Shown: positions 18,832-38,192 of the stretch, piece by piece | How the letters are laid out: every line of letters begins with the position of its first letter | How positions within the stretch are numbered: position 1 is the stretch's first letter | Origin: Verrucomicrobiota bacterium | Lineage (GTDB): Bacteria > Verrucomicrobiota > Verrucomicrobiia > Limisphaerales > JAFGQR01 | DNA: 59,941 nucleotides | Assembly: GCA_016935555.1 (NCBI GenBank) | Contig: JAFGQR010000188.1 | Coordinates: 1-59,941 of the forward strand | Direction of reading: 5' to 3' | Notes under the pieces: generated by a model | Seen by the model: the letters and a program-made list of their open reading frames with translations, nothing else | Databases searched by the model: none | Told to the model about the DNA's origin: nothing | Translations under genes and position numbers: made by a program

Positions 18832-19033
18832 ACTTGCCAGATTTCCGGGAATTTTCAAGTCAAGCTTGCCAGTGACGGGTGCGGCCGGCCCACCCCGGAC
18901 GAACCCCGCGGCTCCCGCCGATCGGTTGTGGACAGGCAGGGGCGGATCCGGTTTGACGGCACGGTGTTCCGTCTCACGCTATTTGCGGCGAAGATGATCG
19001 TGATCATTCGTGGAGCATTGCCGCGATACCCGC

Positions 19034-20003: not shown

Positions 20004-23000
20004 TCAGGGGATGGTGAAATCGAGGCGGGGGTCATGAGCGGGCTGGGGGAGGGAATTGGTTTGGGGTTGGGAATGAGGCGTGGCGGTGGAGGATGGGGAG
20101 TTGGTGCGGAGGGAGGGTTCGGGGAAGAGCGGGTCCAGGAGGCGTTTTTGGAGGTTATCGCGCTTGATTTCGTCTTTGATGGTGGAGTGATCGAGTTGTT
20201 CGCGGGTGAGTCCTTCCATGGAGATGAGGGCGGTTTCGTTGGTTCGGCTGGCGAGGACCTGGGGGGTGAGGAGGATGAGAAGTTCCTTGCGGTCCTTGGT
20301 GTTTTTGGTGCTGCGGAAGAGGGCGCCGAGCACGGGGATATCGCCGAGCAGGGGCATTTTCTTGACGCGTTTGTCGTCGGAGCTGGCGATGAGGCCGCCG
20401 ATGATGACGGTTTGGCCGCTTTGGACGCTGAGGAAGGTGGAGGCTTTGCGTTCGTTGATGATGGGGATGCTGGCTTCGGGGCTGATATCGACGCTGGAGC
20501 TGCTGATGGCGCTGTTGGTGGTGCTGACCTCCATGCTGACGAGGCCGTCGGGGCTGATGCGGGGGGTGACCGTGAGGTTGACGCCGACATTCTCGTAGGT
20601 GAACGAATTGATGCTGTCGCCTTGGTCGGTCACGCGGCTGTTGGTGATCAGGGGGACACGCTGGCCGATATGGATGCTGGCGGGGCGGTTGTCAGCAGTG
20701 AGAATCTGGGGGCGGCTGAGGATTTCGAGGCGGCCGTCGTTCTTGAGGGCGCGGAGCAGGAAACTGTAATCATTGCCGGTGACGGCGGCGGAGTAGCCAC
20801 CAAAGGCGGCGACGGCATCGGCGATCCCGAAATCGGTGCCGGTCAAGTAATTATGCTGGCCATGCGAGCCGGTATAGGTCCATTCGACGCCGAGTTCGAA
20901 TGTGTTGTCGAGGGTGACTTCGGCCAGGAGCGCCTGGATGAGCACCTGGGCTTGGGGCAGGTCGAGCTGTTCGATCAATTCCCGGACTTCCTTGAAGTAG
21001 CGCGGATTCGCGGAGACCAGCAGCGTGTTGCTGGTGGGGTCGGCGACGATGGCGACCTCCTGTTCCAGGAGGCGTTGGGCGGTGCCGACGGCTTCGACCC
21101 CGAGGGTCTGGGTGATGCGCTGGCGGGCTTGGTCAAGGAACGTGCGCAGGGCGGTCGCCACTTCGTCCGCCTGCGCATTCTTGAGCCGGTAGACTTCGGA
21201 CTTGCGTTCCTGGCCGGGATCGAGGTCCAGCGACGTGACGATCTCGGACACAAGGGCGACGTAATGTTCGGTGCCGCCGACCAGCAGACTGTTGGTGCGC
21301 AGGTCCACGGTGACGGTCAGCGCCGATTGTTCGGCGGTGCCGATGGTGGCGGAGGGCGGCGCTTCCGGGCCGAAGATGTCCTGGCCGGTGAGATCGGATC
21401 GCACCAGGGTGTATTGGACGGAGCGCTGGGTGGCGGCGGCGGCCTGTTGCATGCGGAAAAGCGTGGTCAACAGCTCGGCCATTTGGCGCGCATCGGCGTT
21501 CTTGAGTTGGAACACGCGGATTTTGGCCAGCTGGGGCGAGCTCGAGTCGAGGCGGGTGATGATCTGCTCGATGAGTCCCATGTAGTCCACCGGCCCGGAC
21601 ACGATCAGGGAGTTCATCCGGGCGTCGGGCGTGATCAACACCGCCTCGCGCAGCGCGGCGGTGATCAGTTCCTTGCCGTCCTCGCTGCGGGCGATGAACT
21701 GGAGGAGGGACTGGGCATTGGGGTTTTCGTCGCTCAGGGCGGTGGGTTTCTGGTTGAGGGCCTGGTTGAGGATGGTGGAGAGCGAGTCGGCGCGCGCGTA
21801 TTGGAGCGGAAACACCCGGATTTCGGAGACCTTCGCCACCTGGTCGGTGTCGAGTTTCTTGACCAGCTCGCCGATGCGTTTGGCGTCCGCCTGGCCGGCG
21901 GACACGACGATGGCGTTGATGCGTTCGTCGGCGGTGACGGTGACGGGCAGGGCGGCGCCGGGGGCGCCTTCGCGGAAGAGACCCTGGATGGTCTGGGCCA
22001 CGCGCGTGGCGTTCGCCTTGGCCAGCGGCAGCACCTGCACCGAAAGGCCGGTCTCGGTCTGCTCGCTGTCCAGGCGCTCGACGAGGGAGGCGACCATGTC
22101 CAGGTCCTCGACCGACGCGCCCACGATGAGGGCGTTGACCCAGGAATCGGCGACGATGGTGATGGGGTCGGGCGGTTCGCCGCGGACGCGGGGCGGGCGG
22201 TTGGCGAAGATCTGCTGGAGGGTGGCTTGCAGCTTCGTGGCGGTCACCTGGCGCAGCACGAACACGCGGAAGTTCATCCGCGAGAACACGTCCTCGGTGT
22301 CGAGCTGTTCGATGAGGCGGTCGAGGATGTCAAAGCTCTCCTTGCCCGCCGTGACGAGCAGGGTGTTGCTGCGGTCGTCGGGGATGGCGGCGACGGGCAT
22401 GGTGCGAACGGGGGCGTTGATGGCGAGGGCTTCGCCCTGGCGTTTGGCGGCAAAGAACTGGGTGAGGACGGTGGCGAGGCTGCTGGCGCGGGCTTTCTTG
22501 AGTTCATAGACGCGGACGTTGCCGACCTCGGCGAGGTCCTTGGTGTCCACGTTCTTGATGACCTCGCGGATGATGAGCATGTTTTCAGGGCTGGCGGAGA
22601 CGATGAGCGTGTTGCTGCGCGGATCGACGGCCACCGCCATGGCGTCGCGGGCGCCGCCGGCGCCGGGGCCACGGGCGCCGGGGCTGCGGGTGGCGGCGCC
22701 GGGCCGGTAGAGCCCCTGCCGGACGAGGTCTTGGAGCATGTCGGCCACGCGCTGGGCGTCGGCGAACTCGAGGGTGAAGGTCTGGATGAGGCCGGCGCGG
22801 GCCATGGGTTCGACGTCGATTTTGGCGAGCAACCCCTGGATCAGCTCGTGGTTTTCCTTGCTGCCGTAAACGATGAGGGCGTTGTTGAGCGCGTCGGTCT
22901 CGATGTTGACCTGGTCGGTGGGGGAGACGGGCTGGCCGGGGATTTGGCGGCTGCGGAGGCGGGCCTGGAAGGTGGCTTCGAGGGCGGAGGCGACGCGGGT

Positions 23001-26000
23001 GGAATCGTTGTGCTGGAGCGGCAGGATGGCAACGGTCATGTTGGGGTCGGTGATCTCGACGTCCAGGCGCTTGAGCAGTTCGTCGATGGCCTGGTTGTCG
23101 TCCATGCCCGCGGAGACGAGCAGCGCGTTGCTGCGGGGGTCGGCGACGATGATGGGGCGCTGGCGTTGGACGTCCGGGGTGCGGGCGGCGGCATAGCGCT
23201 GGCTGAACAACTGAACCAGCGACGCCGCCGTCGCCCGCGGATCGGCATGGACCAGGGGGATCAGCCGGATGCGCCCGCTCAGCGCGGGTGAGGCGCCGTC
23301 GAGCTGTTGGGCGAGCTGCGCGACCAGTTCGAAGCTGTCCTTGGAGCCGCCGACGAGAAGGCTGTTGCTGCGGGGGTCGGCGAGGACGATGACCTTGAGG
23401 AGGTCGGCCTGTTGTTTGTCGAGGGCGGCGCGCTGGGTGACGCGGGCGTCCATGAGCTGCTGCAGGGTGCCGGCGACCACGGCGGCATCGGCGTTTTGGA
23501 GCGGGAGGATTTTGATGTCGCGCAGCTCGAAGGGGAGGGTTTGGTCGAGCTGCTTGACGAGGCTGTCGATGATGCCGAAGGCTTTGGAGCTGCCGGAGAC
23601 GATCATGGCGTTGATGCGCGGGTCGACGGTGACGTTCGGGATGTCCTCGCGGCGCAGCTGCACGGCGCGGGGGCCGGTGTGAAGGTCGTTGATGATTCTC
23701 TGCAGGGCCGTGGCGTCGGCGTGGTTCAGCGCATAGATGCGGAGCGTGTCCATGCCGGAAGCGCTCGGGATGTCCAACTGCTCGAGGACGTCCTGGATGA
23801 GCGGCAGCGCGTCGCTGCGGGCGGCGACGACGAGGATGTTGGAGATGTCGTCGGCTTGGATGACGAAGGGGGCGCGACTTTTGGGCTGCTGGCTTTCGCG
23901 CGGGACGGCCTCGCCGAAGGTCCGCAGGCGGGTGACCATGGTGCTGAGGCCCTCGGTGCCGGGAACCGCGGGGCCCTCGGCGAACACGGACCGCAGCAGG
24001 GGCAGGATGCGCGTGGCCGAGGCGTGTTTGAGTCGGAACAATTTCACGTCGGTGACATACCGTTCCCCCTCGCGGTCGAGGTCGGCAACCACTTTGAGGG
24101 CGAGGTCGAGTGTTTCGGCGCGGCCGCTCAGGATGAGGGTGTTGAGGCGGGAGTCGGCGGCCACGTTCAGCATATGGACGAGGGCTTTGCCTTCGCCGCT
24201 TTCGGGTTCGCCGGTGCCGACCGGGGTGGCTGCCAGCCGCCGGCCCAGGGTGAAGATGCTGTTGAGCGTTTGGGACACCGTAGCGGCGTCGGCGAACTTG
24301 AGGCTCACGAGTTTGACGTCGACGCCTTCGACGATGGGAACCGAGTCCATCATTTCGATGACGGCGCGCAGCGCCTTCAGGTTGTCGGCGGTCGAGGTCA
24401 GGATGAGGCGGTTGCCACCGGCGGAGCCTGCTCCCGCAGCCGCGGCTGCAGGCCCGGTGGCCGCCCCGGCTCCGGTTTGCGGGTCGGCGAGGATCTTGAT
24501 GGGTTTGCTCAGGTCGAGCACCACTTCCTGGCCGGCATCGTTCTTGATCTTGAGGCGGCGGACTTGTTCCTGGAGTTCACGCGCCTCCGGGGTGAGTTCA
24601 TTCTGCGCGCCGGGCCGGAGCATGGCCTGGAGGATGCCGGCCAGCTGAGGGGCGCGGGCGCGTTTGAGAGACACGACGAGCACCTCGGCTTCGGCGAACT
24701 CGGACGGGACATCGAGGGCGCGGACCATTTGCTCGATGCGTTCGAGCACGTTGGGGCGCGCGACCAGGAGCAGGCCGCGGGACCGGGGATTGACCGACAC
24801 GGTGAGAGGGTCGCCAGGGCGCACGACCGCCATTTGCTTCACCATGTCCTGAACGAGAGCGACGACCTTCTCGGGCTCGGCGTTGGTGAGGGAAACGACG
24901 CGAAAATCAAGCTGGGCCATCAGACCGGCCGCGTCCAGCTGGTTGATGAGCTTTTCGACCAGCGGGAAATCTGAGGGCTTGGCGCGCACGATCACACTGC
25001 GGGTGCGCGGCTCGGGAACGACGGTGAGTTTGGGTTTGGGCACGATCACGCGGGGCTGATCGCCGTGCCGCTGCGGTTCACCCGGCTGCTGCGGCTGGTC
25101 ACCCTGGCGCGGCTGCTGGGGCTGCACCTGGACGGCGGGTTCGCGGAACAGCTCGTTCAGCGTGCGGGCGACGATCACGGGATCGGCTTCCTTGAGCGCA
25201 AAGAGGCGGAACTCGGCGTCGCCGGCGATGAAGGAGAAGGAGAGTTCGGAGATGATGCGGTCCACCTCGTCGAGGTCCTGGGAGGTGCCGGCGAGCAGCA
25301 GGGAATTGGATTCGATTTCGACGGCAATGACGACCTCGGACGAGGCGGGCGGGGTGTTGGTGGCGGGGGCGGCGGGCGCGGGGCCGGGCGCGGGGGTGGC
25401 GCTGGGCGGGTTGGTGGCGGTGGTGTCCGGGCGCGACGGGAGCGGGGTGGGGATTTTGTCGACGACACGGATCTGGCCGGCGGCCATTTGGGGGTAGATG
25501 TTGGTGAGCATCTTGAGCATCTGGGTGGCGGGGACGCCGCTGATGGGCCGGAGCCGGATTTGAAGCGAAGTATCCTGGGAGGGCTCGTCGAGGCGGGCGA
25601 TCATCTCCTTGAGCTGGACGATGTCGGCGCGTTTGGCGATAAGGGTGAGCGTGTTGGCCATGCTGTCGGACTCGATCAGCGGCTGGTCGCTCTCCTCCCG
25701 GGCGGCGAAGGCGGACTGGAGGGTGAAGGCGACGTCGAAGGCGCGGGCGTTTTGGAGCCAGACGATTTCGATGTCGCGTTCGGCGCGTTCGGGGGCTTTG
25801 TCGAGGGTGGGGAGGACTTTCTCGATGAGGTTGAAATAGAACTCGGCGCCGGAGATGACGAGGCTGTTGGAGGGTTCATCGATGGAGACGGTGGGCTGGA
25901 CGATGCGGGCGGTGGAGCGGCTGCGGGCGTGGGTGCGATAGACGTTGAGGAGGAGCTGTTCGAGGATGGCGGACACTTCCTTGGCGGTGCCGTTTTCGAG

Positions 26001-29000
26001 CTTGTAGATGCGCACCTCGATGTCGGTGTCCTTGCTCTCGAGGTCGAGCCCCTTGATGATCTCCATGACTTCCCTGACGGCGTCCCCGGGGCCGTGGATG
26101 AGGAGGCTGTTGGCGCCGGCGACGGCGGTGACGTTGACGCGCTGCAGCCGGGTCCGCGGGGTGCCGTCCCGGCCCATGCCGCCGCGCTGGACGCGCTGGG
26201 CGATGTTTTCGGTGACGGCCTCGGCGATGTCTTCGGCCTGGCCTTTCGCCAGGTGAACGGTTTGGATCACGTTCTGCCCTTCCGGATCCTCCTTGTCCAG
26301 GGTGGCGATGAGCTTCTCCGCCTCCGCCAGCTTGTCGGGCGGGCCTTGGACGACGACGGCGTTAAGGGAGACGGCTGGGGCGACGCGGATCTGGCGCGGG
26401 CTGGTGGCGCCGCGGCGTCCGTAGCCGCCGTAGGAGAACTGGCTGCCGGGGTAATAGCCGGGACCCGCGCCGGAGCGGTCGGCGAGCATGTCGGAGAGCA
26501 CGGTGGCGATTTGCTCCGGTTCGGCGTGTTTGAGGATGAAGGTGCGGATTTCCATGGTGGCGCCGGCGGACTGCATGAGTTCCTGGACGAGCTTGTCGAT
26601 TTGGACGAACTGCTCCTTAGTGGCCCCGACCATGATGAGGTTGGCATTGGAGTCGGCTTCGAACCGGGGCTCGAGTCCGGCGCGGCCGCGGTCACCGCGC
26701 ATGCCGCGATCGGAGCGTTCGGCGAAGAGGCGCTGGAGGCTTTGGGCGAGGTTCACCGCGCTGCCTTCGGGTGCCGGGTAGGTGCGGACCTGCCAATCGC
26801 CCTGGCCTTCGGGGGTGTCGAGGGACTTGATCAGCTGTTCGGCCAGGACCAGCTTCCCGGGCGGGCCCTGGACGACGACGGCGTTCAACGAGGCGGCGGA
26901 CGAGACGCGGACGTCGCCGGCGGCGGCGCGGGGGCGGCCGAACCGGCTCGAGTAGGGCATCGAGCCCGACTCGGAAGATCCGCCGCCGAAGCGGCGTGAA
27001 CTGCCGCCGGCGGGGGACAACATCTCCTCGAGGACGCGCGAGACTTGGTCGGGGTCGCCGTGTTTGAGGACGAAGGTGCGGATTTCGTTGGTGACGGCGA
27101 CGGAGGCTTTGAGTTCGGTGATGAGTTTGTCGATTTGTTCGAACTGCTCGCGGGTGGCGCCGACCATGAGGAAGTTGCCGGTATCGGCTTCGAACCGGGG
27201 CTGCATGGCGCCGCCGCGGCTGGGGCCGCGTTCGCCGCCGCGCTCGGTGAAGAGCCGTTGGAGGCTTTGGGCGAGGCTCGGGGCGGTGCCTTCGGGGGTT
27301 TGGTAGGTGCGGACTTCCCAGCGGCCGGGGCCCTCGTCGCTGTCGAGGGTTTTCACGAGCTGCTCCGCGAGAGCCAGTTTGTCCGGCGGCCCCTGGAGAA
27401 CAATGGCATTGAGAGAGGCGGCCGGGGCGATGCGCAGGTCGGCTTGAGAACGGAATCGGCCGAAGCGGTAGGCCATGCTGGAATCCTGCGGGTAGGCGCC
27501 CATCCCGCGGCTGCGGGAGGCGAGCATGTCTTCGAGAACGCGGGCCACCTGGTCGGGGTCGCCGTGTTTGAGGACGAGGGTGCGGATTTCGTTGGTGACG
27601 GAGACGGCGGTTTTGAGTTCGAGGATGAGCTTGTCGATTTGTTCGAACTGCTCGCGGGTGGCGCCGACCATGAGCATGTTGGCGGCGGCGTCGGCTTCGA
27701 AGCGCGGTTCCATGCCGGAGCGCTGGCGGCCGCCGCGTTCGGCGAAGAGGCGTTGGAGGCTTTGGGCGAGGGTGAAGGCACCGCCTTCGGGGGCCTGGTA
27801 GGTGCGGACCTCCCAACGGCCGGGGCCTTCCTCGCTGTCGAGGGTTTTCACGAGTTGCTCGGCGAGGGCGAGCTTCTCGGGCGGGCCCTGGACGACGACG
27901 GCGTTGAGGGACTGGGCGGGGACGACGCGGACCTCGTTGAGGTTGCGGCCGCGTGCAAAGCGCGCAGCGTAGCTGCCGCCGTCGGGGAAGCCCATGCGGC
28001 GGGCGGCGGCGTTGTCCGAGAGCATTTGTTCGAGGACTTGGGCGACCTGCTCCGGGTTGCCTTGTTTCAGGACGAAGGTGCGGATTTCGTTGGTGACGGC
28101 GACGGTGGTTTTGAGTTCGGTGATGAGCTTGTCGATTTGTTCGAACTGGGTTTTGGTGGCGCTGACGAGGAGGATATTGGAGATGGGGTCGCCCTCGAAG
28201 CGCGGGGCGGGGCCGCCGAGGCCGCGGCCACGTTCCATGTAAAGGCGGGAGAGGCCCTGGGCGAGGAGCATGGCGCTGCCTTCGGGCAGGAGGTAGGTCC
28301 GGACTTCCACGGCCCCTTTGGCCTCGTCGCTGTCCAGGGTGTGCACGAGCGTTTCCACCCTTTCCAAGATCTGGCTGGTGGCGTCGACCAGAAGCGTGTG
28401 GTCGTCGGGGGAGGCGGTGACGACAAGGCGCTGGCCGGGGTCGGTGCTGCGGGTTTCGCGCCAGAAAAGCTGGGAAAGCATGGTGGCGACGGACGCGGCG
28501 GAGTTGTGATGGAGCATGAGGACGCGGATTTGGCGGCCGGTGCCTTCGGCGGCCTGCTGGAGCTGGGTGACGATGTCCTCGAGGAGTTTCATGTGGGATT
28601 CGCTGGCGGTGACGATGAGGCGGTTGCTGACGTCGTCGCCCAGGATGAGGGCGTCGGCGCCGCCGGCCTGGCCGCCGCCTTTGACCTGGTCCTCGTAGAG
28701 TTGCTGCACGCGGTCGGAAACCTCGGTGGCGACGCCGGAGGTGAGGGCGAAGATGCGCATGAGGCGTTTGTCGCGGATCATGGCGGTGTCCATCTGGTCG
28801 ATGATGGCGCTGGCGGCCTGGAGGTCTTTGGGTTCGCCGGAGAGGATGACGAGGTTGTTTTGTTTGTCGGTGCCGACGCTGATGCGGGGCACTTGACGGC
28901 CGTAGGGGGAGGTCTGGATGAGCGCGGTGGAGAGGACGGTGGCCACCTGTTCGGCGTCGGCGGACTTGAGTTTGAAGACGCGGGCGCGGCCGGACTGGGC

Positions 29001-32000
29001 GCTGACCTCGTCGAGTTTGGTGATGATGGCGTCGATGGCGGCGAGTTCGTTGGTGGGGGCGGAGACGATGAGGCGGTTGGCGGCCTGGTCGGGAAGCACG
29101 GTGGCCAGGCTGACGGGGGCACCGGGGCGGGATTTGAGCTGTTCCTGATAGAGGGTTTTGACGGTGGCAGCGAGTTCGGCGGCGACGGTGGCCTGCAGGT
29201 CATAGACGCGCGTTTCGAGGCTGTCGGCGGCGGGGCGCTCCGGGTGAACCTGGGCGAGGAGCTTTTCGATCTCGGCCAGGTGCTCCTTGCGGGCGGTGAC
29301 GACCAGGCGGCCGTTCTGTTCATCCGCCAGGATCTTGGCGTCGGCGGGATCGTGGGCTTCCTTGTTCTTCCAGAGGTCGGTGTAGAGTTGTTGAAGGAGG
29401 GTCTGGATGCGGAGGACTTCGTCGGGCTGGCCAATGGGGAAGAACCGGGTTTCGCGGGGCCCCTGGGCGGCGGCAGGCCGCGAGATCTGGGCGACGATTT
29501 CCTCGATGAGTTTCAATTGGGCTTCGCTGCCGGCGAGGATGAGCTGGTTGCTGGTCGCGTCGGCGAGGATGAGGGCGTCGGCAATGCCGAGTTCGGGCTC
29601 GCTTTTGACGCGGTCCTGGTAGAGCTGCTGGACCTGGGTGACCAACTCGGCGGAGCGGACGTTGGTGAGGGCGACAACCTTCATGAGGCGTTCGATCTGG
29701 GTGCCGAGGGAGGTGTCGAGCTGTTCGATGATGACGGAGGCGGCCTGGAGTTCCTTGGGGTCGCCGGTGGCGATGAGGGTGCGGGTGTTGGGGTCGACGC
29801 TCACGGTGATCCGCTTGCGGGGGCGCCCGTAGGAATCGTAGGTGACCAGAGCGCTTTGGAGAATTTCGCTGACCTTGGCGGGGTCGGCGGACTTGAGGCG
29901 GAAGACGCGTGCGGAGGCGCTTTGGGCGGAGACCTTGTCGAGCTTGGTGATGATGTCTTCGACGATGCGCAGCTCGTTGGTGGTGGCACAGACAATAAGG
30001 CGGTTGGCCCCGGCGTCGGGCTGGATGATGGTCTCGGCGGCGGTGGAGCCGGGGCGGGCTTTGGCCTGCTCGAGGTAGAGGGAGCGGACGGTGCTGGCCA
30101 GTTCCATGGCCATGGCGGAGGTCAGGTCATAGATCCGGGTCTCGCGGGCTTCGGCCGGGGTGGTGCCGGCTTGGAGTCTGTGGAGAATGGTCTCGATGGC
30201 GGCGAGGTGGTTGGTGCGGGCGGTGACGATGAACCGGCCGTTTTGCGCGTCCTGCATGATTTGGGCGTCGGCGGGGTCGCTGGGGGACTGGTCGCGCCAT
30301 TGTTCCTGGTAAAGCTGCTGCACCAGCGGGAACAGACGCTGGACCTCGTCGGCGGTGCCAACCTGCAGCATGCGGGTTTCGCGGGGCGCCTGGTCGGCTT
30401 GGGCGGCCTGGAGGTCGGTGATGACCTTTTCGATCAGCTCGAGCTGGGGGGCGCTGCCGGCGAGGATGAGCTGGTTGCTGGCGGCGTCGGGCAGGACCAA
30501 TGCGTCGGCCAGACCCAGTTCGGGGTGGTTTTTGACCTGGTCCTGGTAGAGCTGCTGGATCTTGGTGTACAACTCGGTGACGCGGACGTTTTTCTTCAGG
30601 GAGACGACCTTCATGAGGCGTTCGGCCTGGGGGCCGAGGGAGGCATCGAGCTGTTCAATGATGACGGAGGCGGCCTGGAGTTCCTTGGGGTCGCCGGTGG
30701 CGATGATGGTGCGGGTGCTGGAGTCGACGCTGATGGTCACGCGTTTTCGGGGGCGCCCGTAGGAATCGTAGGTGACGAGGCCGGTGGTGAGAATTTCGGC
30801 AACCTTGGATGGGTCGGCGGACTTGAGGCGGAAGACGCGTGCGGAGGCGCTTTGGGTGCTGGTTTTGTCGAGCTGGGCCACGATGCCTTCGACTTCGGCG
30901 AGTTCGGCCGGGTCGCCGACGAGGATGAGGCGGTTGGCGTTGGCATCGGACATGATCATCGTGTCCGGGGTGATCGAGCCGAGCCGGCTTCTTACCTGGT
31001 CGAGGTAGAGGGTGCGGACGGTGGTGGCGAGCTCGACAGCGTTGCCGGCCGTCAAATCGATGACACGCGTTTCGCGGTCGGCGGTCTTGACCTTGGCAGG
31101 GGGCGCGTTGGTATCGGGGCCGACGGGGACGCCCAGCTGCTGGAAGATGGTTTCGATGTGTTTCACGTGGCCGGCGCGGCCGGTGACGATGATACGTCCG
31201 GCGCGGGCGTCGCCCATGATTTTGGCGTCGGCGGGGTCGGCGGGGATTTTATCTTTCCACTGTTCCTGGTAGAGTTGCTGGACGAGGGGCAGGAGGCGTT
31301 CGACGTCGGCAGGGCGTCCGACGTCGAAGGCGCGGGTTTCGCGCGAGACGAGGTTGGTGTCGGTGAAGGGCTGGAGGGTGGCGAGGATGGTGTCGAGGCG
31401 ATCGAGGTGATCTTTGCGGGCGGTGACGAGGATGCGGCCGGTGCGGCGGTCGGGGATCATTTGGGCATCGGCGGGGCCGGCGGCGGGGTCATTGGCGAGC
31501 TGGTCGCGATAGAGCTGCTGGATGAGAGGGAGGACGCGCTGGGCTTCGGCAGGGGTGCCGAGGTCGAAGACCCTGGATTCCCGTGGGGGGCGGGATTCGG
31601 ACTCGAGGGTGGCGACGATCTGGCGGAGGGTGGCGGCTTGTTCTTTGGTGCCGTAGACGGTGAACCTTTTGCCGGCGCTGTCGGGGTAGATGGTGGCGGG
31701 TTTGAGGGGTTTGCCCTGGGATTGTTCGGTGTAGATGCGGGTGACGGCGGGGAGAAGTTCGGCGGCGGAGGCATTGGTGAGTTCGATGGAGGTCAGTTCG
31801 CGGGCGTCCTGGCCGGGAGGCAGGTCGAGGGTGGCGACGACGGTTTCGACCTGGGCGATCATGGAGGGGGGGGCGAGGACGATCAGGCGTTTGCCGATGG
31901 GCTCGGGGGTGAGGGTGAGCACGTTGGTGAGGTTGCGCCCGAGGTTTTGGGCGGCGAAGACGCGCAGGGTGAGTTCGGCCAGTTTGGCGGGATCGTCGGC

Positions 32001-35000
32001 GTTGACCTTGATGATCTTGAGCTGGCGGGTGGCGTCGCCGCCGGGCAGGAACCCGCGGGTGTCGCCGTCGAGACCTTCGATGATGACGGCGGCGTCCTGG
32101 AGATCGGTGCGGGAGCCGGTGACGATGAGGCTGTTGGACTTGAGGTCGGCGGCGACGGTCACTTTACGGATGGGCAGGCCGCGGGCGTCGAAGCGGAGCA
32201 TGGCGTTAGAGACGATCGGGGCCAGGACGGCGGCGTCGGAGCTCTCAAGCTTGAAGACGCGGGCGCTGCCGGATTGGCCGGCGGTCTGGTCCAACTGTTT
32301 GACGAGGTCGGCGACGAGTTCGAGTTCGAGTTTGGGGCCGGTGACGATCAGACGATTCGAGGTGGGATCAGGGACAATTTGGGTCTGGGCGACGTAGGCG
32401 GCGCCACGCTGGTCTTTGATCATCTCCGTGAACAGCGAGGTGAGCATCGGCGCCAGGGTGGTGGCGTCCCCGGAGCGCAGGTCGAGGATGCGCATTTCGC
32501 GTGGGGTCATGTCGGAGCGGGTATCGAGCTGTTCGATGACTTTGGAGGCGGCCTCGACGGCGGCGGAGTCGCCGGTGAGGACGAGGCTGTTGCTGCGGGC
32601 GTCGACGAGCACCTTGATGGTTTGGGCCTGGGCGTTGAGGCTTTTTTCGACGAGGGCGGCGAGCTCGGCGGCGAGGGCGGCTTTGAGGCGGACGACGCGG
32701 GTTTCCTCCTTGGTGCCTTTGAGGCTTTCGGGGTCGAGCTGGCGGATGATGGCGGTGACGCGGGCGATTTCGGCGTCGGAGCCGCTGACCATGATGCGGT
32801 TGTTTTTGGGTTCGGCGAGGAGTGTGGCGGCGCCGCCTTGGGGTTCGGCGAGGCCGCGCAGTTGTTCCTGGTAGAGCTGTTGGACGAGAGGGGTGAGTTC
32901 GGCGGCGGTGCGGCTGTAGAGCTCGACGGCCTTGAACTGGCGCGCGGCGGCGGTGGCGGCGGCGGTATCGAGCTGGCGGATGAAGGCCTCGAGGCGTTCG
33001 AGGTCGGGGGCGGTGGCCAGGGCGATGATTTGGCGGCCGGACGGGTCGGGGATGAGGCGGGGGGCGAGTTGGGGGTTGGGCTGGGCCTCGACGAGCTGGG
33101 CCATGAGCTGGGTGGTCAGGTTAAGGATCTCGCCGGCGGACTTGGAGGTGATGAGGATGACCTTCATCTCGCGCCGCGCGGTTTCGGGGGCGATATCGAG
33201 GATCTGAAGCACTTCTTCGACTTCCTTGAGCTGGTCGGCCGAGGCGGTCACGAGCAAGCGATTGTTCGCGGCGTCGGGGGTGAGGGTGGGTTTGGGCTGG
33301 CCGGCAAAGCGCGGGCTGTTGAGGCGTTCGTTGAGAAGGGACTGGATGTTGGCGAGGGCGGTGTCGGCCCGGAGATGTTGCAGGGCCAGAATGCGGGTTT
33401 GGCGCGGGGCGATGGGGGGTTCGATGTCCAGGGCGAGGAGCACCTGCTGGACTTCCTTGAGTTGGTCGTCCGTGGCGGTGACGAGGAACCGGTTGTTGGG
33501 GGCATCGGGGGTGATCAGGGGCTTGGGCACGTCCGCAAACCGTTTGTCGGTCATGCGCTCGGAGACGAGGTCGGCGAGGCTTTTCTGGAGGGCATCGACG
33601 CGGGTGTTTTTGAGTGTGAAGATTTCGAGGCGCCGCGCCTGGACGAGGGCGGGTTGGGCCTGGAGATCCTTGAGGAGTTTCTCAAGGAGGGCGAGGTGTT
33701 CGGGGCTGGCGGTGACAATGAGCCGGCCGGAGCCGGGTTCGGCGAGGATTTTGGCGGCGGAGGGCAGTTTGCTGGCGGGTTCGCCGACCTGATTGCGGTA
33801 GAGTTGTTCGAGAAGGGGCTGGAGGCGTTTGGCTTCGGCGGGAGTGCCGAGGTCGAAGAACCGGGTTTGCATCGCCTCGGTCGGCACGGTGCCTTCTTCG
33901 AGCTGGGTGAGAATGTCAAACGCGATCTGGACATCGGAGGGGGAGCCGCTGACGACGACGGTTTGGCTGCCGGGCTCGACGCTGACGTTGGCGGTGGTGC
34001 CGGTGGCGCCGGAGGGCAGGCGCCGGGTGAGGGCTTCGGTCAGGATCTTGGCGACGGTGGCGGGTTCGGCGGTGCGGGGGCGGAAGACCTTGGTGACCTG
34101 GATGGTTTCGGAGCGGATGCGTTCGGAGCTGGTGCTGCCGGTGGCTTTGGCGCCCTGGTCGACTTGGTTGATGAAGTTGTCGATGGCTTCCAGCTGGCCG
34201 GGGATGGGGGCGACGACGATGATGCGGTTTTGGGTGGAATCGGTGAGGAGGCGGGCTTTGGTGGGGGCGTTTTCGCTGGGGCTGGCAACGCCGGGGATGG
34301 CCTGGCGGATCATCTGGGCGAGCTGATCGATCTGGAGGTCCTGGGGGTAGTAGATACGGATGTCGCCGCCGGCGCCGCCTTTCTCCTCGAACCGTTTGAT
34401 GAGGTCTTCGGCGAGGGCGATGCGTTCGGTGGGGCCCCAGAGGACCATGGTGCGCGAGGCGTCGTCGTAGATGGAGGTCACGTAATCGGCGGGATCAGGC
34501 GGCAGAATATCGAGGTGGGAGTTCTTGGCGTTATGGCTGGTGCGTTTGGGGGCGGTGGCGGCGCCGAAGGTTTTGTTGATGAGATCCGCCACGATGGCAC
34601 CCGAGGCATGGACGAGGGTGAAGGTTTTCATCTGGCGGGTGACGGAGGCTTCGGTGTCGATCTGGTTGAGCAGGTGGCGGATGCGCTGGATGGAGGCGAG
34701 GCGGTCGGTGAGGATGAGGCCCTGGCCGCGCGAGAGGGGCGCAATCGAACCCGCGCTCGAGAGCATGGGGGTGATGGACTGGGTGACTTCGCGCGCTTCG
34801 AGGTTTTTGAGTTCGAGGACGACGGTCACGACTTCGCCGGGCCGGACGTCGCCGGTCGGGTCGGTGCCGCGGAAGATTTTGAGCGGCATTTGGGGGAGTT
34901 CCTTGAAGGGGACAAGTTGGAGATAATGGCCGGTCTCGACGAGCATCATGCCTTTCATGGAGAGCATGAGGTTGAGGGTGTCGAGCGCTTCGGCGTAGGT

Positions 35001-35369
35001 GTAGGGCTGGGGATCGTTGAAGGTGAGGGTGCCTTCGATCTTGGTGTCCTGAACCAGAGGCTTGTCCGCCATCTGCGCAAACCTCTCCAGAACCTCCGCG
35101 TAGGGCATGCCGTCGAACTGGAACCGGATGTTGCGGTTGGTTGCCGAAGGAGCGGCGGCGGCGGGCGAGACGACCGCGGTGGCCGGCGAGCTTCCGTTCG
35201 TGGCCGGGGCGGCCTTGGGCGCCACGGGGGTTGCGGTGTTGGCGGGGGCTGCAGCCGCAGCCGGGGCGGCCGGGGGCGGCGCATTGGTGGCCGGCGGCGG
35301 GGCGGAAGTGGCGGCTGTGGCGACCAAGGCGGACGCCAGTCCGATGAAAAGGGGGTTTAGTCCGTTCAT
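20004..35369 (-). CDS. gspD: Giant type II secretion secretin (GspD-like) with about 55 N1-type repeats
   Basis: This outer-membrane secretin is 5,121 residues in one uninterrupted frame. It has a signal sequence (about 1-22), a Pro/Ala/Thr-rich linker (23-80) and an N0/STN-like domain (81-155, RFQFDGMPYAEVLERFAQM). An array of N1-type ring-building domains runs from about 180 to 4780. Each repeat ends in the pattern DxxxNxLxVxG..., then a helix, then LD (examples: PDPTSNRLIVTGPKLELEL, VDPRSNTLIVSASPENM). I count about 55. The secretin barrel follows (about 4806-5035), with VPLITNSRVTDQG, VGVNLTVTPRIS, SGQTVIIGGLIAS and GDIPVLGALFRS, then an 85-residue tail. Ordinary GspD is near 650 residues with N0-N3. 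Several loops carry Gly/Arg/Ser/Tyr- or Pro/Gln-rich inserts. The ATG at 35369 begins the signal sequence and lies 40 bp after the preceding gene. The family assignment is secure; how so many domains assemble is unknown. Confidence 0.92.
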   Translation of the reverse strand: MNGLNPLFIGLASALVATAATSAPPPATNAPPPAAPAAAAAPANTATPVAPKAAPATNGSSPATAVVSPAAAAPSATNRNIRFQFDGMPYAEVLERFAQMADKPLVQDTKIEGTLTFNDPQPYTYAEALDTLNLMLSMKGMMLVETGHYLQLVPFKELPQMPLKIFRGTDPTGDVRPGEVVTVVLELKNLEAREVTQSITPMLSSAGSIAPLSRGQGLILTDRLASIQRIRHLLNQIDTEASVTRQMKTFTLVHASGAIVADLINKTFGAATAPKRTSHNAKNSHLDILPPDPADYVTSIYDDASRTMVLWGPTERIALAEDLIKRFEEKGGAGGDIRIYYPQDLQIDQLAQMIRQAIPGVASPSENAPTKARLLTDSTQNRIIVVAPIPGQLEAIDNFINQVDQGAKATGSTSSERIRSETIQVTKVFRPRTAEPATVAKILTEALTRRLPSGATGTTANVSVEPGSQTVVVSGSPSDVQIAFDILTQLEEGTVPTEAMQTRFFDLGTPAEAKRLQPLLEQLYRNQVGEPASKLPSAAKILAEPGSGRLIVTASPEHLALLEKLLKDLQAQPALVQARRLEIFTLKNTRVDALQKSLADLVSERMTDKRFADVPKPLITPDAPNNRFLVTATDDQLKEVQQVLLALDIEPPIAPRQTRILALQHLRADTALANIQSLLNERLNSPRFAGQPKPTLTPDAANNRLLVTASADQLKEVEEVLQILDIAPETARREMKVILITSKSAGEILNLTTQLMAQLVEAQPNPQLAPRLIPDPSGRQIIALATAPDLERLEAFIRQLDTAAATAAARQFKAVELYSRTAAELTPLVQQLYQEQLRGLAEPQGGAATLLAEPKNNRIMVSGSDAEIARVTAIIRQLDPESLKGTKEETRVVRLKAALAAELAALVEKSLNAQAQTIKVLVDARSNSLVLTGDSAAVEAASKVIEQLDTRSDMTPREMRILDLRSGDATTLAPMLTSLFTEMIKDQRGAAYVAQTQIVPDPTSNRLIVTGPKLELELVADLVKQLDQTAGQSGSARVFKLESSDAAVLAPIVSNAMLRFDARGLPIRKVTVAADLKSNSLIVTGSRTDLQDAAVIIEGLDGDTRGFLPGGDATRQLKIIKVNADDPAKLAELTLRVFAAQNLGRNLTNVLTLTPEPIGKRLIVLAPPSMIAQVETVVATLDLPPGQDARELTSIELTNASAAELLPAVTRIYTEQSQGKPLKPATIYPDSAGKRFTVYGTKEQAATLRQIVATLESESRPPRESRVFDLGTPAEAQRVLPLIQQLYRDQLANDPAAGPADAQMIPDRRTGRILVTARKDHLDRLDTILATLQPFTDTNLVSRETRAFDVGRPADVERLLPLVQQLYQEQWKDKIPADPADAKIMGDARAGRIIVTGRAGHVKHIETIFQQLGVPVGPDTNAPPAKVKTADRETRVIDLTAGNAVELATTVRTLYLDQVRSRLGSITPDTMIMSDANANRLILVGDPAELAEVEGIVAQLDKTSTQSASARVFRLKSADPSKVAEILTTGLVTYDSYGRPRKRVTISVDSSTRTIIATGDPKELQAASVIIEQLDASLGPQAERLMKVVSLKKNVRVTELYTKIQQLYQDQVKNHPELGLADALVLPDAASNQLILAGSAPQLELIEKVITDLQAAQADQAPRETRMLQVGTADEVQRLFPLVQQLYQEQWRDQSPSDPADAQIMQDAQNGRFIVTARTNHLAAIETILHRLQAGTTPAEARETRIYDLTSAMAMELASTVRSLYLEQAKARPGSTAAETIIQPDAGANRLIVCATTNELRIVEDIITKLDKVSAQSASARVFRLKSADPAKVSEILQSALVTYDSYGRPRKRITVSVDPNTRTLIATGDPKELQAASVIIEQLDTSLGTQIERLMKVVALTNVRSAELVTQVQQLYQDRVKSEPELGIADALILADATSNQLILAGSEAQLKLIEEIVAQISRPAAAQGPRETRFFPIGQPDEVLRIQTLLQQLYTDLWKNKEAHDPADAKILADEQNGRLVVTARKEHLAEIEKLLAQVHPERPAADSLETRVYDLQATVAAELAATVKTLYQEQLKSRPGAPVSLATVLPDQAANRLIVSAPTNELAAIDAIITKLDEVSAQSGRARVFKLKSADAEQVATVLSTALIQTSPYGRQVPRISVGTDKQNNLVILSGEPKDLQAASAIIDQMDTAMIRDKRLMRIFALTSGVATEVSDRVQQLYEDQVKGGGQAGGADALILGDDVSNRLIVTASESHMKLLEDIVTQLQQAAEGTGRQIRVLMLHHNSAASVATMLSQLFWRETRSTDPGQRLVVTASPDDHTLLVDATSQILERVETLVHTLDSDEAKGAVEVRTYLLPEGSAMLLAQGLSRLYMERGRGLGGPAPRFEGDPISNILLVSATKTQFEQIDKLITELKTTVAVTNEIRTFVLKQGNPEQVAQVLEQMLSDNAAARRMGFPDGGSYAARFARGRNLNEVRVVPAQSLNAVVVQGPPEKLALAEQLVKTLDSEEGPGRWEVRTYQAPEGGAFTLAQSLQRLFAERGGRQRSGMEPRFEADAAANMLMVGATREQFEQIDKLILELKTAVSVTNEIRTLVLKHGDPDQVARVLEDMLASRSRGMGAYPQDSSMAYRFGRFRSQADLRIAPAASLNAIVLQGPPDKLALAEQLVKTLDSDEGPGRWEVRTYQTPEGTAPSLAQSLQRLFTERGGERGPSRGGAMQPRFEADTGNFLMVGATREQFEQIDKLITELKASVAVTNEIRTFVLKHGDPDQVSRVLEEMLSPAGGSSRRFGGGSSESGSMPYSSRFGRPRAAAGDVRVSSAASLNAVVVQGPPGKLVLAEQLIKSLDTPEGQGDWQVRTYPAPEGSAVNLAQSLQRLFAERSDRGMRGDRGRAGLEPRFEADSNANLIMVGATKEQFVQIDKLVQELMQSAGATMEIRTFILKHAEPEQIATVLSDMLADRSGAGPGYYPGSQFSYGGYGRRGATSPRQIRVAPAVSLNAVVVQGPPDKLAEAEKLIATLDKEDPEGQNVIQTVHLAKGQAEDIAEAVTENIAQRVQRGGMGRDGTPRTRLQRVNVTAVAGANSLLIHGPGDAVREVMEIIKGLDLESKDTDIEVRIYKLENGTAKEVSAILEQLLLNVYRTHARSRSTARIVQPTVSIDEPSNSLVISGAEFYFNLIEKVLPTLDKAPERAERDIEIVWLQNARAFDVAFTLQSAFAAREESDQPLIESDSMANTLTLIAKRADIVQLKEMIARLDEPSQDTSLQIRLRPISGVPATQMLKMLTNIYPQMAAGQIRVVDKIPTPLPSRPDTTATNPPSATPAPGPAPAAPATNTPPASSEVVIAVEIESNSLLLAGTSQDLDEVDRIISELSFSFIAGDAEFRLFALKEADPVIVARTLNELFREPAVQVQPQQPRQGDQPQQPGEPQRHGDQPRVIVPKPKLTVVPEPRTRSVIVRAKPSDFPLVEKLINQLDAAGLMAQLDFRVVSLTNAEPEKVVALVQDMVKQMAVVRPGDPLTVSVNPRSRGLLLVARPNVLERIEQMVRALDVPSEFAEAEVLVVSLKRARAPQLAGILQAMLRPGAQNELTPEARELQEQVRRLKIKNDAGQEVVLDLSKPIKILADPQTGAGAATGPAAAAAGAGSAGGNRLILTSTADNLKALRAVIEMMDSVPIVEGVDVKLVSLKFADAATVSQTLNSIFTLGRRLAATPVGTGEPESGEGKALVHMLNVAADSRLNTLILSGRAETLDLALKVVADLDREGERYVTDVKLFRLKHASATRILPLLRSVFAEGPAVPGTEGLSTMVTRLRTFGEAVPRESQQPKSRAPFVIQADDISNILVVAARSDALPLIQDVLEQLDIPSASGMDTLRIYALNHADATALQRIINDLHTGPRAVQLRREDIPNVTVDPRINAMIVSGSSKAFGIIDSLVKQLDQTLPFELRDIKILPLQNADAAVVAGTLQQLMDARVTQRAALDKQQADLLKVIVLADPRSNSLLVGGSKDSFELVAQLAQQLDGASPALSGRIRLIPLVHADPRATAASLVQLFSQRYAAARTPDVQRQRPIIVADPRSNALLVSAGMDDNQAIDELLKRLDVEITDPNMTVAILPLQHNDSTRVASALEATFQARLRSRQIPGQPVSPTDQVNIETDALNNALIVYGSKENHELIQGLLAKIDVEPMARAGLIQTFTLEFADAQRVADMLQDLVRQGLYRPGAATRSPGARGPGAGGARDAMAVAVDPRSNTLIVSASPENMLIIREVIKNVDTKDLAEVGNVRVYELKKARASSLATVLTQFFAAKRQGEALAINAPVRTMPVAAIPDDRSNTLLVTAGKESFDILDRLIEQLDTEDVFSRMNFRVFVLRQVTATKLQATLQQIFANRPPRVRGEPPDPITIVADSWVNALIVGASVEDLDMVASLVERLDSEQTETGLSVQVLPLAKANATRVAQTIQGLFREGAPGAALPVTVTADERINAIVVSAGQADAKRIGELVKKLDTDQVAKVSEIRVFPLQYARADSLSTILNQALNQKPTALSDENPNAQSLLQFIARSEDGKELITAALREAVLITPDARMNSLIVSGPVDYMGLIEQIITRLDSSSPQLAKIRVFQLKNADARQMAELLTTLFRMQQAAAATQRSVQYTLVRSDLTGQDIFGPEAPPSATIGTAEQSALTVTVDLRTNSLLVGGTEHYVALVSEIVTSLDLDPGQERKSEVYRLKNAQADEVATALRTFLDQARQRITQTLGVEAVGTAQRLLEQEVAIVADPTSNTLLVSANPRYFKEVRELIEQLDLPQAQVLIQALLAEVTLDNTFELGVEWTYTGSHGQHNYLTGTDFGIADAVAAFGGYSAAVTGNDYSFLLRALKNDGRLEILSRPQILTADNRPASIHIGQRVPLITNSRVTDQGDSINSFTYENVGVNLTVTPRISPDGLVSMEVSTTNSAISSSSVDISPEASIPIINERKASTFLSVQSGQTVIIGGLIASSDDKRVKKMPLLGDIPVLGALFRSTKNTKDRKELLILLTPQVLASRTNETALISMEGLTREQLDHSTIKDEIKRDNLQKRLLDPLFPEPSLRTNSPSSTATPHSQPQTNSLPQPAHDPRLDFTIP
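26500..28310 (-). repeat. Four tandem copies of a two-domain (about 500 bp) unit inside the secretin gene
   Basis: The landmark TGTTTGAGGA (one copy TGTTTCAGGA) followed by a GGTGCGGATTTC block recurs at 26527, 27061, 27565 and 28063, spacings of 534, 504 and 498 bp. Each unit encodes an FEQIDKLI-type domain and an SLNAVVVQGPP-type domain. The nucleotide similarity is high enough to indicate fairly recent in-frame tandem duplication. The length differences come mostly from variable Gly/Ser/Arg/Tyr-rich inserts. Confidence 0.85.
28750..31600 (-). repeat. Three tandem copies of a four-domain (about 930 bp) unit inside the secretin gene
   Basis: The block CGGCCTGG(A)G.TC.TTGGG occurs at 28814, 29741 and 30671 (spacings 927 and 930 bp). 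ACTTGAGGCGGAAGACGCGT occurs at 29891 and 30821 (930 bp). Each 310-residue unit carries four N1-type domains in the same order, such as ATGDPKELQAASVIIEQLD, SNQLILAGS, NGRFIVTAR and ANRLIV. All periods are multiples of three, so the frame is preserved. Confidence 0.88.
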
Positions 35370-35409: not shown

Positions 35410-36441
35410 TCATGGGGCAGGGCTGGAGGCGGCCTGGAGTTGGGGGACGTTGGGCGGCACCTGGTTGGGGGTCAGCTTGTATTTCTCGGCCAGGGTCTGC
35501 CCCCGTTCGATCGCCCAGAATTCGCTGCCGATCTTGAGGATGACGCGGCTGAAGGACATCAGCCCGGGCTTGCCGGGCATCGGCAAGGCCCGGTAATCCA
35601 CCATCACCACCACGCCGTCGGCGAGCGTGTCGCCGGCCTTGTAGGTGGCGGTCCGCTTGGCATTGAGGTTCATGACATGGATTTCGGGGCGGCCGTTCCA
35701 TTCGCTCAGCGACACAATCCGGAACGTTTCCGGGCCGGGCTCGGCCGGGGCGGACACCACTTGGGCGGGCGGCGGCGCCCGGGCTGGTTCTGGCGGGGGT
35801 GGGGGGCGTTTGACATAGGGGCGGAAGATATCGCGGGCGAGGATGGGATGGTAAGACTTGTGCTGGGGGCTGTCGAGGGATGCGGGCGGCAGGGGTTGGG
35901 GTTGGACATCGGGGGCTGGGGAAACGACGAGGGTAAGGTATTTGAGGCGGACGTTGGCGAAGCCGGGTTTGTCGCCGGGGGTGATGGCTGGGGTATCGAT
36001 TCGGTGGAGTTGAGGGGAGTGTTGGAGGAGGAAGAGGAGGTTGACGACGTTGGCGAGGGGTCCTTGGCCCTGGATGATCCAGCCGATTTCCTGGTCGCCT
36101 TTGGGGACGATGGCACGGGGGCCGTGGGGGAGGCGGGTAAAATCCGCCTCGCGCAAGCCGCTTTCAAGGATGAGCTTGGTGATCATCTCGCCGGACCGCG
36201 CGCTGGCTTCGTCGACGGTATCGGCGAAGCAACGCCGGGCGTGTTGTTTGACGAGGTCCTCGGCGGCGAAGTAAGCTCGGCGCTCCTCGTTGAGTTTGGC
36301 CAGTTTGGAGCGCAGGGCTGCGTTGCGCTGGTCGGCGGCTTTCAGGGGTTTCGCCAGGGCGGTTTTGAGGGTGTAGCCGAGCACGAACACGGCTGCGAGG
36401 CCGGCGATGGCGAACAGCAGCAGTTTGTCGCGTCGTTTCAC
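35410..36441 (-). CDS. GspM/PilO-like protein fused to a GspC/PilP-like periplasmic domain
   Basis: This 343-residue inner-membrane protein has one transmembrane helix (LLLFAIAGLAAVFVLGYTL, about 7-25), a charged coiled-coil-like stretch (about 33-65), and a PilO/GspM-like ferredoxin-type region (about 70-185). A Pro-rich linker containing HPILARDIFRPYVKRPPPP (about 198-216) and a small beta domain (about 245-330) that resembles the homology region of GspC or PilP follow. In type II systems the GspC homology region contacts secretin N0, which fits the next gene being the secretin. The start is GTG, in a GTGA overlap with the preceding gene, and has a good ribosome binding site (GAGGTGG) 5 nt upstream. 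A fused M-C protein would explain the absence of a separate gspC. Confidence 0.7.
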   Translation of the reverse strand: MKRRDKLLLFAIAGLAAVFVLGYTLKTALAKPLKAADQRNAALRSKLAKLNEERRAYFAAEDLVKQHARRCFADTVDEASARSGEMITKLILESGLREADFTRLPHGPRAIVPKGDQEIGWIIQGQGPLANVVNLLFLLQHSPQLHRIDTPAITPGDKPGFANVRLKYLTLVVSPAPDVQPQPLPPASLDSPQHKSYHPILARDIFRPYVKRPPPPPEPARAPPPAQVVSAPAEPGPETFRIVSLSEWNGRPEIHVMNLNAKRTATYKAGDTLADGVVVMVDYRALPMPGKPGLMSFSRVILKIGSEFWAIERGQTLAEKYKLTPNQVPPNVPQLQAASSPAP

Positions 36442-38192
36442 GAGCCACCTCGCCTGGGTTTGGTCAGCGACACATCATCCTCGGGGCGCGGGGGCGGGGC
36501 CAGCCTGGCCAAGTCGATTTTGAGCTGGCTGGGCACCACGAGGTCAATGCTGGAGCGGAACGAATAATTGTAGCGGTCCTTGCCGGGTTTGATGGCCAGG
36601 GGCTGGACTTCGTAGCCGGCGGCGGTGAGTTGTTTTTCGAGCATGGCCAGGACTTCGCCGCTGCGGGCTTGGACGCCGAGGTTGATGCGGCCCTGGCTGC
36701 TGACGCTCAAGCCGGTGATGTAAACGTCTTCGCACGAGGGCAGCACCGCGCTGAGATACGCAACGTGGTCCAGCCAGTTCTGCCCGGCCGCCAGCCAGTT
36801 TTTGATCCCGGCCGCCTGGATCCGCATCCGTCGGTAAGCATCGCGGCGCCCCGTTTCAACCTGGAACCGGACATTGAGCGCGGCAAATTCCGTCTGCTTC
36901 TTCCGCAGGAGCCGCACCTCGATGGCGCCGACGGCCAGGATCAGGGCGGCGGCGGCGGCGGCGGCGGCGGCGATCTTGAGGCGGCGGGTGTCGCGCTGGA
37001 TGGCGGGCTGTTTGGGGTTGAGAAAATCGAACGGAAGGCCGCCGGGGTCGAAGACTCCCAGGCCCAAGCCGAGGGCGGCAATGGCGCCGGAGGCATAACC
37101 GCGGGCGTCGAGGGGGAGGTCCAGCGCCCGGGCCGGTTCGAGCAGGCTGCACGGGATGTTCAGCCGTTTCTGGAGGGCTTCGACCACGCTGGCCTCGTGG
37201 CCGGTGGCGCCGGCGACGACGAGGCGGGCGACGGGGTTTTTGACTTCCATGCCGCCGAAACTGTGGAAGCTGCGCACGACTTCGATGGTGATTTCCTCCA
37301 GAACGGATTGCGGCGTGTCGGAGGCAGGCGGCGTGCGGGCGGAGAAAGGCTCGCCGGTCGGGGGGGACCAATCGACATCGGACAACTGGCTGTCCGTGAC
37401 AAAGGCCACGGAGGCGGCTTCGGCATGGAGGCGGGTGGAGACGCCGCGGCTGAACAGGAGGTCCTGCTGGGCGATCACGTCCACGAGCACTTCGTCGGGG
37501 CGCAGGGTCACAAAGGCGACGCTTTCCTGGCCCTCATAAACGCGGCAGGCTTCGATGCACCGCGCGTTCGCGTAGGGACGGAACCCCAACGCCAGCAGGG
37601 TGAGGCCGGCGGCGGCGGCGACTTGCCGGCAATAGTCCACCACCTCCCGCCTCGCGGCCGCCACCATCACGTCCATCATCGCCGGCGCGTCTGCCGGGGC
37701 GTTGTCCCCGTTGCCGCTCCCGCCCCGAGGCGCGGGCGGCGGCTCGGCGCGACGGACTTTGAAATCGATGACTGCTTCTTCGAGGCGGAACGGCAGGTCT
37801 TTGGCGATCTGAAAATGAACCACGGACGCCAGTTCGCGGACGTCGTTCATGGCGGGGACCGAGATGGTGCGCAACACCACCAGGGCGCGTGGCACGCCCA
37901 TGACCACCGGCCCGGGTCTGATCCGCAAGTGGTTCAACGCCCGCGCAATCGCCCGCCCGAACACGTCCGCCTCCGGCTGGGCCGCCTTGTCGCCCAGGCC
38001 GAGCTGTTCGACCGCCACCCGGGAAACCCGTACCCGCCCGTGACGGCGGTGGGTTTGAACGACGCGGAGGGTGTCGCCTTCGACGTCAATGGCGGTGATC
38101 AGGCCGCACGGCCGCACCGGCCCGTGTTTTCGCCCGAAAGGCGGTGGCCACCATGCGCGGAGGGGTTTCAGGACATCGGCGGGCTTAGGCAT
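36438..38192 (-). CDS. gspL: GspL-like (PilM-PilN type) assembly platform protein
   Basis: This 584-residue protein has a cytoplasmic actin-like PilM domain (about 30-385; AIDVEGDTLRVVQTHR at the start, LVVAGATGHEASVVEAL and the late ASGAIAALGLGL). One transmembrane helix rich in alanine follows (about 400-420), then a periplasmic PilN/GspL-like ferredoxin domain (about 425-560). That is the architecture of GspL, which links the ATPase GspE to the inner-membrane platform. It overlaps the upstream GspK gene by 8 bp and the downstream GspM-like gene by 4 bp. The fold order is clear, although sequence similarity to proteobacterial GspL looks low. Confidence 0.78.
   Translation of the reverse strand: MPKPADVLKPLRAWWPPPFGRKHGPVRPCGLITAIDVEGDTLRVVQTHRRHGRVRVSRVAVEQLGLGDKAAQPEADVFGRAIARALNHLRIRPGPVVMGVPRALVVLRTISVPAMNDVRELASVVHFQIAKDLPFRLEEAVIDFKVRRAEPPPAPRGGSGNGDNAPADAPAMMDVMVAAARREVVDYCRQVAAAAGLTLLALGFRPYANARCIEACRVYEGQESVAFVTLRPDEVLVDVIAQQDLLFSRGVSTRLHAEAASVAFVTDSQLSDVDWSPPTGEPFSARTPPASDTPQSVLEEITIEVVRSFHSFGGMEVKNPVARLVVAGATGHEASVVEALQKRLNIPCSLLEPARALDLPLDARGYASGAIAALGLGLGVFDPGGLPFDFLNPKQPAIQRDTRRLKIAAAAAAAAALILAVGAIEVRLLRKKQTEFAALNVRFQVETGRRDAYRRMRIQAAGIKNWLAAGQNWLDHVAYLSAVLPSCEDVYITGLSVSSQGRINLGVQARSGEVLAMLEKQLTAAGYEVQPLAIKPGKDRYNYSFRSSIDLVVPSQLKIDLARLAPPPRPEDDVSLTKPRRGGS

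Follow-up and report, generated by a model that had tools for sequence, protein, structure and literature searches.

The window analysed here is the whole stretch of 59,941 nucleotides at positions 1 to 59,941 of contig JAFGQR010000188.1, from the assembly GCA_016935555.1 of a Verrucomicrobiota bacterium (order Limisphaerales). Our subject is its giant gspD, a predicted secretin gene that comes last in an operon for a type II secretion system (T2SS). An earlier note on this DNA, made from the sequence alone, had described a 15.4-kb frame without a stop, and the frame is indeed there: 20004-35369 holds 15,366 bases and 5,121 codons from ATG, with no internal stop. Its strand needs stating, however, since the frame lies on the minus strand and the first plus-strand frame over 20004-35369 contains stops. 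Plus-strand frames overlapping the gene (up to 2,771 residues) are taken as GC-rich shadow frames. The gene and its parts are these:

20004-35369, minus strand: giant gspD, 5,121 residues, with signal sequence (by eye), Ala/Pro-rich linker, N0, 56 N1-type domains, secretin barrel and short C-terminal tail
34824-35135, minus strand: N0 domain, about residues 79-182 (PF21305, TIGR02517, phmmer to PDB, conservation in other giants)
20943-34826, minus strand: array of 56 N1-type (Secretin_N) domains, residues 182-4809 (Pfam and repeat hidden Markov model)
28539-31340, minus strand: domains 16-27 (residues 1344-2277), in which a four-domain unit of about 309 residues stands three times, with fewer copies in G030
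26277-28307, minus strand: domains 29-36 (residues 2355-3031), where a two-domain unit occurs four times
20253-20750, minus strand: secretin barrel domain PF00263 (Pfam match)

Both ends of the protein are those of a secretin, as the earlier note had read them. By eye, the N-terminus carries a Sec-type signal and then an Ala/Pro-rich linker. The N0 domain that follows scores below the 27-bit cut-off of PF21305 (24.7 bits, E 2.2e-5), while TIGR02517 aligns at residues 84-369 beginning at model position 2, residues 90-242 match GspD N-domain chains in the PDB by phmmer (E about 2e-6), and the N0 domains of five other giants are 61-79% identical to it. The barrel is complete, matching PF00263 at E 9.7e-51 over profile positions 1-168 of 169. 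Between them the note had counted roughly 55 N1-type repeats, and the proposed model searches bear this out, with the Secretin_N and Secretin models both matching and the repeats Secretin_N-like. For the Pfam and NCBIfam scans the protein was cut into three pieces at arbitrary points, in which 19, 19 and 16 Secretin_N stretches, 54 in all, pass individually. A repeat hidden Markov model (HMM), built from the window's protein and refined with further giants, finds 56 domains over residues 182-4809, with a median linker of 2 residues and no gap above 20; the first of the array scores just 5.1 bits. Run on E. coli K-12 GspD, this model counts 3 N1-type domains. The three pieces score 371, 517 and 668 bits against the GspD model TIGR02517, all above its curated cut-off of 351.35 bits, although these scores are inflated because the totals add up many repeated stretches. 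PDB sequence searches with the protein likewise lead to GspD chains. Judged by these matches, the giant is a type II outer-membrane secretin whose periplasmic part is enlarged, with 56 N1-type domains in place of the usual three.

The window's protein is not alone. Among 39 relatives of the same order we found six further frames of 3,901-4,142 codons that end in a secretin domain, one of them (G038) truncated by the contig start. An N0-N1 profile made from an alignment of seven giants and searched over 320 genomes of the order matches 107 of them at 134 bits or more, in 22 family labels by our own count. Two weaker partial rows were excluded, one of 94 bits in G174, which is among the 107 in any case, and one in G313 that covers 47 positions at 83 bits. 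Among the matches listed the next rows below the giants reach at most 84 bits, in frames of 293-642 residues. Stop-to-stop frames have at least 2,500 codons in 77 of the 107 genomes, at least 3,500 in 55 and at least 4,500 in two. In the 55 genomes the range is 3,597-5,155 codons, with a median of 3,996 and an interquartile range of 3,956-4,124, and the longest giant frame found is the window's copy. Of 15 stretches inspected around short or middling frames, 12 end at a contig end; G138 holds a closed frame of 3,024 residues with a barrel. In a sample of 286 genomes of the class, all 15 that match at E<=1e-24 belong to the order. In a sample of 288 genomes of the phylum, the N0-N1 profile matches only the window's own genome and a ten-domain profile finds no frame above 1,347 residues besides the window's; both being samples, the absence outside the order holds for the sampled genomes. 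On these searches, the oversized secretin is a class common to related species, with the window's copy its extreme member, much as the earlier note had supposed in speaking of a class expanded more than tenfold and in proposing a search for large secretins in Verrucomicrobiota.

The arrays correspond to one another domain by domain. We counted domains with the repeat HMM in 29 sequences, the window's protein and 28 others drawn from 27 genomes; the count may leave out the weak first domain of some giants. Of these others, 22 are closed frames with 25-47 domains each and a barrel, five end at contig ends and one (G254) at a frame break. Linkers have a median of 2-3 residues across the giants, and N0 and the barrel are retained at opposite ends; a barrel profile built from five giants matches 27 of 30 sequences, the other three being pieces that end before the barrel. 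Reciprocal best domain pairs between the window's protein and other giants fall in order in nearly every case (G030 41/41, G196 42/42, G113 38/38, G029 40/41, G083 25/26, G267 24/25, G253 23/24 and G001 33/36). Corresponding domains average 48.5-60.4% identity and random other pairs 24.6-26.2% (five comparisons), and a ten-domain segment measures 818-835 residues in all 36 loci that pass a collinearity filter. The shared order and the higher identity of matching domains show that each array position has kept its own identity, and since giants of different families have one ordered domain set, the array descends from a common ancestor. We rest common descent on domain order because barrel trees do not give the giants as one clade. 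In two such trees, ordinary rows on long branches fall beside the giants G001 and G162; a constraint holding the giants together is not rejected (approximately unbiased test, p-AU 0.247). Some ordinary rows in these trees were badly cut, and from the second two were dropped by the program and six long or cut ones left out beforehand.

Against this shared background the window's array appears to have grown locally. It has 13 more domains than that of G030, which fit one more copy of the four-domain unit, the fourfold two-domain unit at domains 29-36 and a doubled domain 6/7. Every second domain of the two-domain unit carries an insert of 14-21 residues, and G001, G083 and G267 align a single domain pair to this region. 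Inserts of 6-45 residues after helix 1 occur in 13 of the 56 domains, or in 15 of the 56 if either of two sites in that loop is counted. The giants are under purifying selection, as measured on two pairs. For G083/G084 the ratio of nonsynonymous to synonymous substitution rates (dN/dS) is 0.086 over 2,904 codons, and none of 29 domains has a proportion of nonsynonymous differences (pN) above 0.04; for G123/G144, where synonymous sites are near saturation, the ratio is 0.071. A third pair, G253/G255, is saturated.

A structure prediction of a fragment, also proposed by the earlier note, agrees with the domain assignment. AlphaFold was run on domains 44-53 with 33 sequences, those of the window and of 32 of the 36 collinearity-filtered loci. 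All 10 units are predicted to have the N1-type order beta-alpha-beta-beta-alpha, with a mean predicted local distance difference test score of 73.8. Of 27 PDB matches that Foldseek gave at E<=0.001, secretins or chains from complexes containing a secretin make up 26, and the other belongs to an unrelated complex.

The giant closes an operon whose genes, from upstream to downstream, run E, F, G, H, I, J, K, L, M and D, all on the minus strand:

43783-45567, minus strand: gspE ATPase, in which residues 40-91 form a cyclic-di-GMP-binding domain of MshE type (NF053729 exceeds its cut-off, and the best model, TIGR02533, falls just short of its own)
42468-43676, minus strand: gspF (best model TIGR02120, below its cut-off)
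41871-42407, minus strand: gspG, major pseudopilin (Pfam and NCBIfam scans)
41154-41855, minus strand: gspH (Pfam and NCBIfam scans)
40510-41571, minus strand: frame with a gspI-like minor pseudopilin, its true start probably later (position and conservation; no Pfam match)
39657-40544, minus strand: gspJ-like minor pseudopilin (prepilin-type start by eye, position and conservation; no NCBIfam match)
38185-39660, minus strand: gspK (Pfam and NCBIfam scans)
36438-38192, minus strand: gspL-like, PilM-like part (PF11104; TIGR01175 below its cut-off)
35410-36441, minus strand: gspM-like; an N-terminal helix, a PilO/GspM-like domain and a Pro-rich linker precede a conserved C-terminal beta domain whose kinship is uncertain

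The description of this operon as otherwise normal stands for the succession of E to M and then D; it is to be qualified in that gspI and gspJ are assigned by position and conservation only and that no separate gspC was seen in the window's operon. The top fold matches of GspM are PilO and Amuc_1100. Its C-terminal domain was suspected of being a GspC HR domain on a likeness seen by eye: the domain matches neither Pfam T2SSC nor E. coli GspC, and Pfam, PDB-sequence, top-50 fold and hhalign comparisons gave no support. Because GspE carries the MshE-type domain, secretion may be under second-messenger control.

The same gene order recurs at many other giants' loci, and the operon is kept beside most of those with enough upstream DNA. 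A closed M-matching frame is present at 58 of 80 named loci, many of the remaining ones holding little upstream DNA. Six loci with 5-10 kb upstream each (L096, L108, L112, L113, L114 and L116) have no match to the window's T2SS proteins. At L026, which shares its contig with L114, E and F come after D, and in G006 they are oriented the opposite way. Downstream of the window's giant, on the same strand, 7135-18858 (minus strand) encodes a frame of 3,907 residues, possibly a secreted giant, with seven lamin-tail stretches and CotH kinase, bacterial Ig and chitobiase-C-type domains. A link between this neighbour and giant gspD was rejected, as 1 of 26 other giant loci with 1.2-12 kb of downstream DNA (L029) matches it, and partially (35% over 152 residues); a further match, at L028, lies upstream of the operon instead. 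At 49946-59689 the window holds a secreted-looking run of genes that we take to be DUF2961-like, transglutaminase-like, a beta-helix/NHL-like protein of 1,239 residues and alpha-L-fucosidase-like.

The likeliest working of the giant, to which we give a probability of about 0.45, is that its rings pile up into a very long stack that spans a periplasm wide at least in places. About 15 chains would make up one channel, a tube some 100-200 nm long to which each N1-type domain would contribute one ring; N0 would sit at the inner-membrane platform of L, M, F and E, and the barrel would lie in the outer membrane. By the logic of Thermus PilQ, 56 rings of some 2.5-4 nm give an estimate of 140-220 nm, with ring height and, likewise, oligomer number borrowed from other secretins. 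Such a tube could guide the pseudopilus and folded substrates over a periplasm locally far wider than usual, and its length may be tuned by local duplication of one-, two- or four-domain units. The narrow spread of frame lengths around the median is as expected of something bridging a set distance. In favour of the stack we also count the identity and number of the domains, the fold of the modelled units and its matches to secretins, the short linkers, the near-constant length of the ten-domain segment, the collinear domains under purifying selection, the retention of N0 and barrel at opposite ends and the conserved T2SS operon. For comparison, an outer compartment named the paryphoplasm has been described in Ellin514 (Pedosphaera) and three other Verrucomicrobia (PMC2647929). 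Our comparison with Ellin514 is one of published ultrastructure, and NCBI assigns Pedosphaera/Pedosphaerales and Limisphaerales to different classes. GTDB unites Limisphaerales and Pedosphaerales, and the paryphoplasm has later often been interpreted as an enlarged periplasm.

Besides this taxonomic distance, several other observations weigh against a ring stack. The similar lengths could be explained by shared ancestry alone, and since closed giants vary from 25 to 56 domains, any bridged distance is not universal. We infer the ring stacking of the added domains, and the geometry of the monomer is unsure: the predicted template modelling score for domains 44-53 is 0.45, and the top 20 matches to secretin chains have root-mean-square deviations of 11.5-43.6 A, so large over several domains that the inter-domain arrangement is not predicted. 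TolC-like proteins occur in all 24 genomes tested, 14 of them giant-bearing, and each of these 14 has at least one TolC-like frame of 420-620 residues; G083 also has a TamB-family frame of 1,256 codons, with no TamB match in the other 13. Because TolC and TamB bridges suit closely spaced membranes, the periplasm cannot be wide everywhere, and these ordinary-size frames weaken the idea of a uniformly wide one. (TolC-family OEP matches also lie within frames of about 1,540-1,595 residues in G196, G123, G144, G295, G063, G225, G243 and G071, which are perhaps fusions of the outer-membrane efflux protein with its pump.) The bolder proposal that a protein tube of more than 100 nm, with some 40-56 stacked rings of one polypeptide, bridges both membranes and determines or indicates how wide a giant periplasmic compartment is, unit duplication being the evolutionary control of its length, is one that we hold to be doubtful.

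A serious rival, if a less likely one in our estimate, is that the array is a flexible or superhelical string, in which rings are formed only by the barrel, the final few N domains and N0, the remainder being a tether or scaffold binding peptidoglycan, the pseudopilus or substrates. The departure of the monomer model from known secretin chains, the trans-periplasmic proteins of normal size in the same genomes, the twofold difference in domain number between families and the inserts after helix 1 would all suit such a string. Yet all domains retain an N1-type sequence with very short linkers, and the identity of each position is kept across families beyond the needs of a loose tether. Alternatively, the enlarged N-module may be a secretion chamber or multi-gate vestibule for very large substrates, lying curled or sideways in a normal periplasm. 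The 3,907-residue neighbour would serve as an example of such a substrate and the recurrent inserts could extend into the lumen, but the rarity of that neighbour beside other giants speaks against this reading, which we consider unlikely.

Two further explanations concern the integrity of the chain. Post-translational cleavage into several proteins has no positive evidence beyond the general knowledge that very long chains are often processed, and with the between-domain spacers of the window's protein all at most 20 residues we think it very improbable. As for an assembly artefact or a fusion of neighbouring genes, the named relatives are all metagenome assemblies, and the array is broken in G254, broken by frame changes in G075 and split into two frames in G318. 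In G075 (L139) many overlapping frames lie in the array within a contig of 1.08 Mb, and in G318 (L140) the two frames have 601 and 3,196 residues; these last two arrays are either sequencing errors or decayed genes. Giants nevertheless occur in many independent assemblies, in 107 of the 320 genomes and across the 22 family labels, with domains collinear between families and dN/dS of 0.07-0.09 over whole frames. Repeat mis-assembly is unlikely because the long internal DNA repeats of giant gspD are 65-72% identical, too diverged for it, the longest exact repeat being between 45 and 59 bases. We reject an artefact on these grounds and give it a negligible probability.

The secretion channel is real and apparently of an undescribed kind. 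In the open-access full-text literature, with preprints outside the search, no title or abstract among the matches listed reports a giant secretin, and neither do the secretin passages of PMC3422733 and PMC8563730. The fold and the secretion system are already known; the scale is new, with N1-type domains nearly twenty times as numerous as in a usual T2SS secretin and conserved one by one across families of a single order. One chain is estimated at about 540 kDa; if 15 copies assemble, the complex would have a mass of about 8 MDa by our estimate. The disputed periplasm width of these Verrucomicrobiota becomes directly testable, as the giant secretin predicts tubes visible by cryo-tomography.

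In its plan the giant resembles type II GspD proteins such as E. coli GspD, PulD and XcpQ, with N0, N1-type domains, a barrel and a T2SS operon with E, F and G to M. It departs from E. coli GspD in having 56 N1-type domains instead of 3, and from the TIGR02517 family plan of N1, N2 and N3; in the window's operon no separate gspC was seen, and GspM has an extra C-terminal domain. Ordinary secretins of the same order share the PF00263 barrel and span 188-1,321 residues among the matches listed, giants and cut pieces aside. The earlier estimate of one to about four such domains in known secretins holds for T2SS secretins, which have the three domains N1, N2 and N3 (PMC10550240), and is too low for Thermus thermophilus PilQ, whose N1-N5 make five (PMC5745081). 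Secretin ring number depends on the machine, and in Thermus PilQ it has been tied to periplasm width. That protein is a parallel for extra N domains: its six rings (N0-N5) measure 350 A, are termed among the largest and reportedly reach across most of a wide periplasm (PMC5745081). PilQ, however, has 757 residues and serves a type IV pilus, whereas the giant adds 56 N1-type domains to its N0 and belongs to a T2SS.
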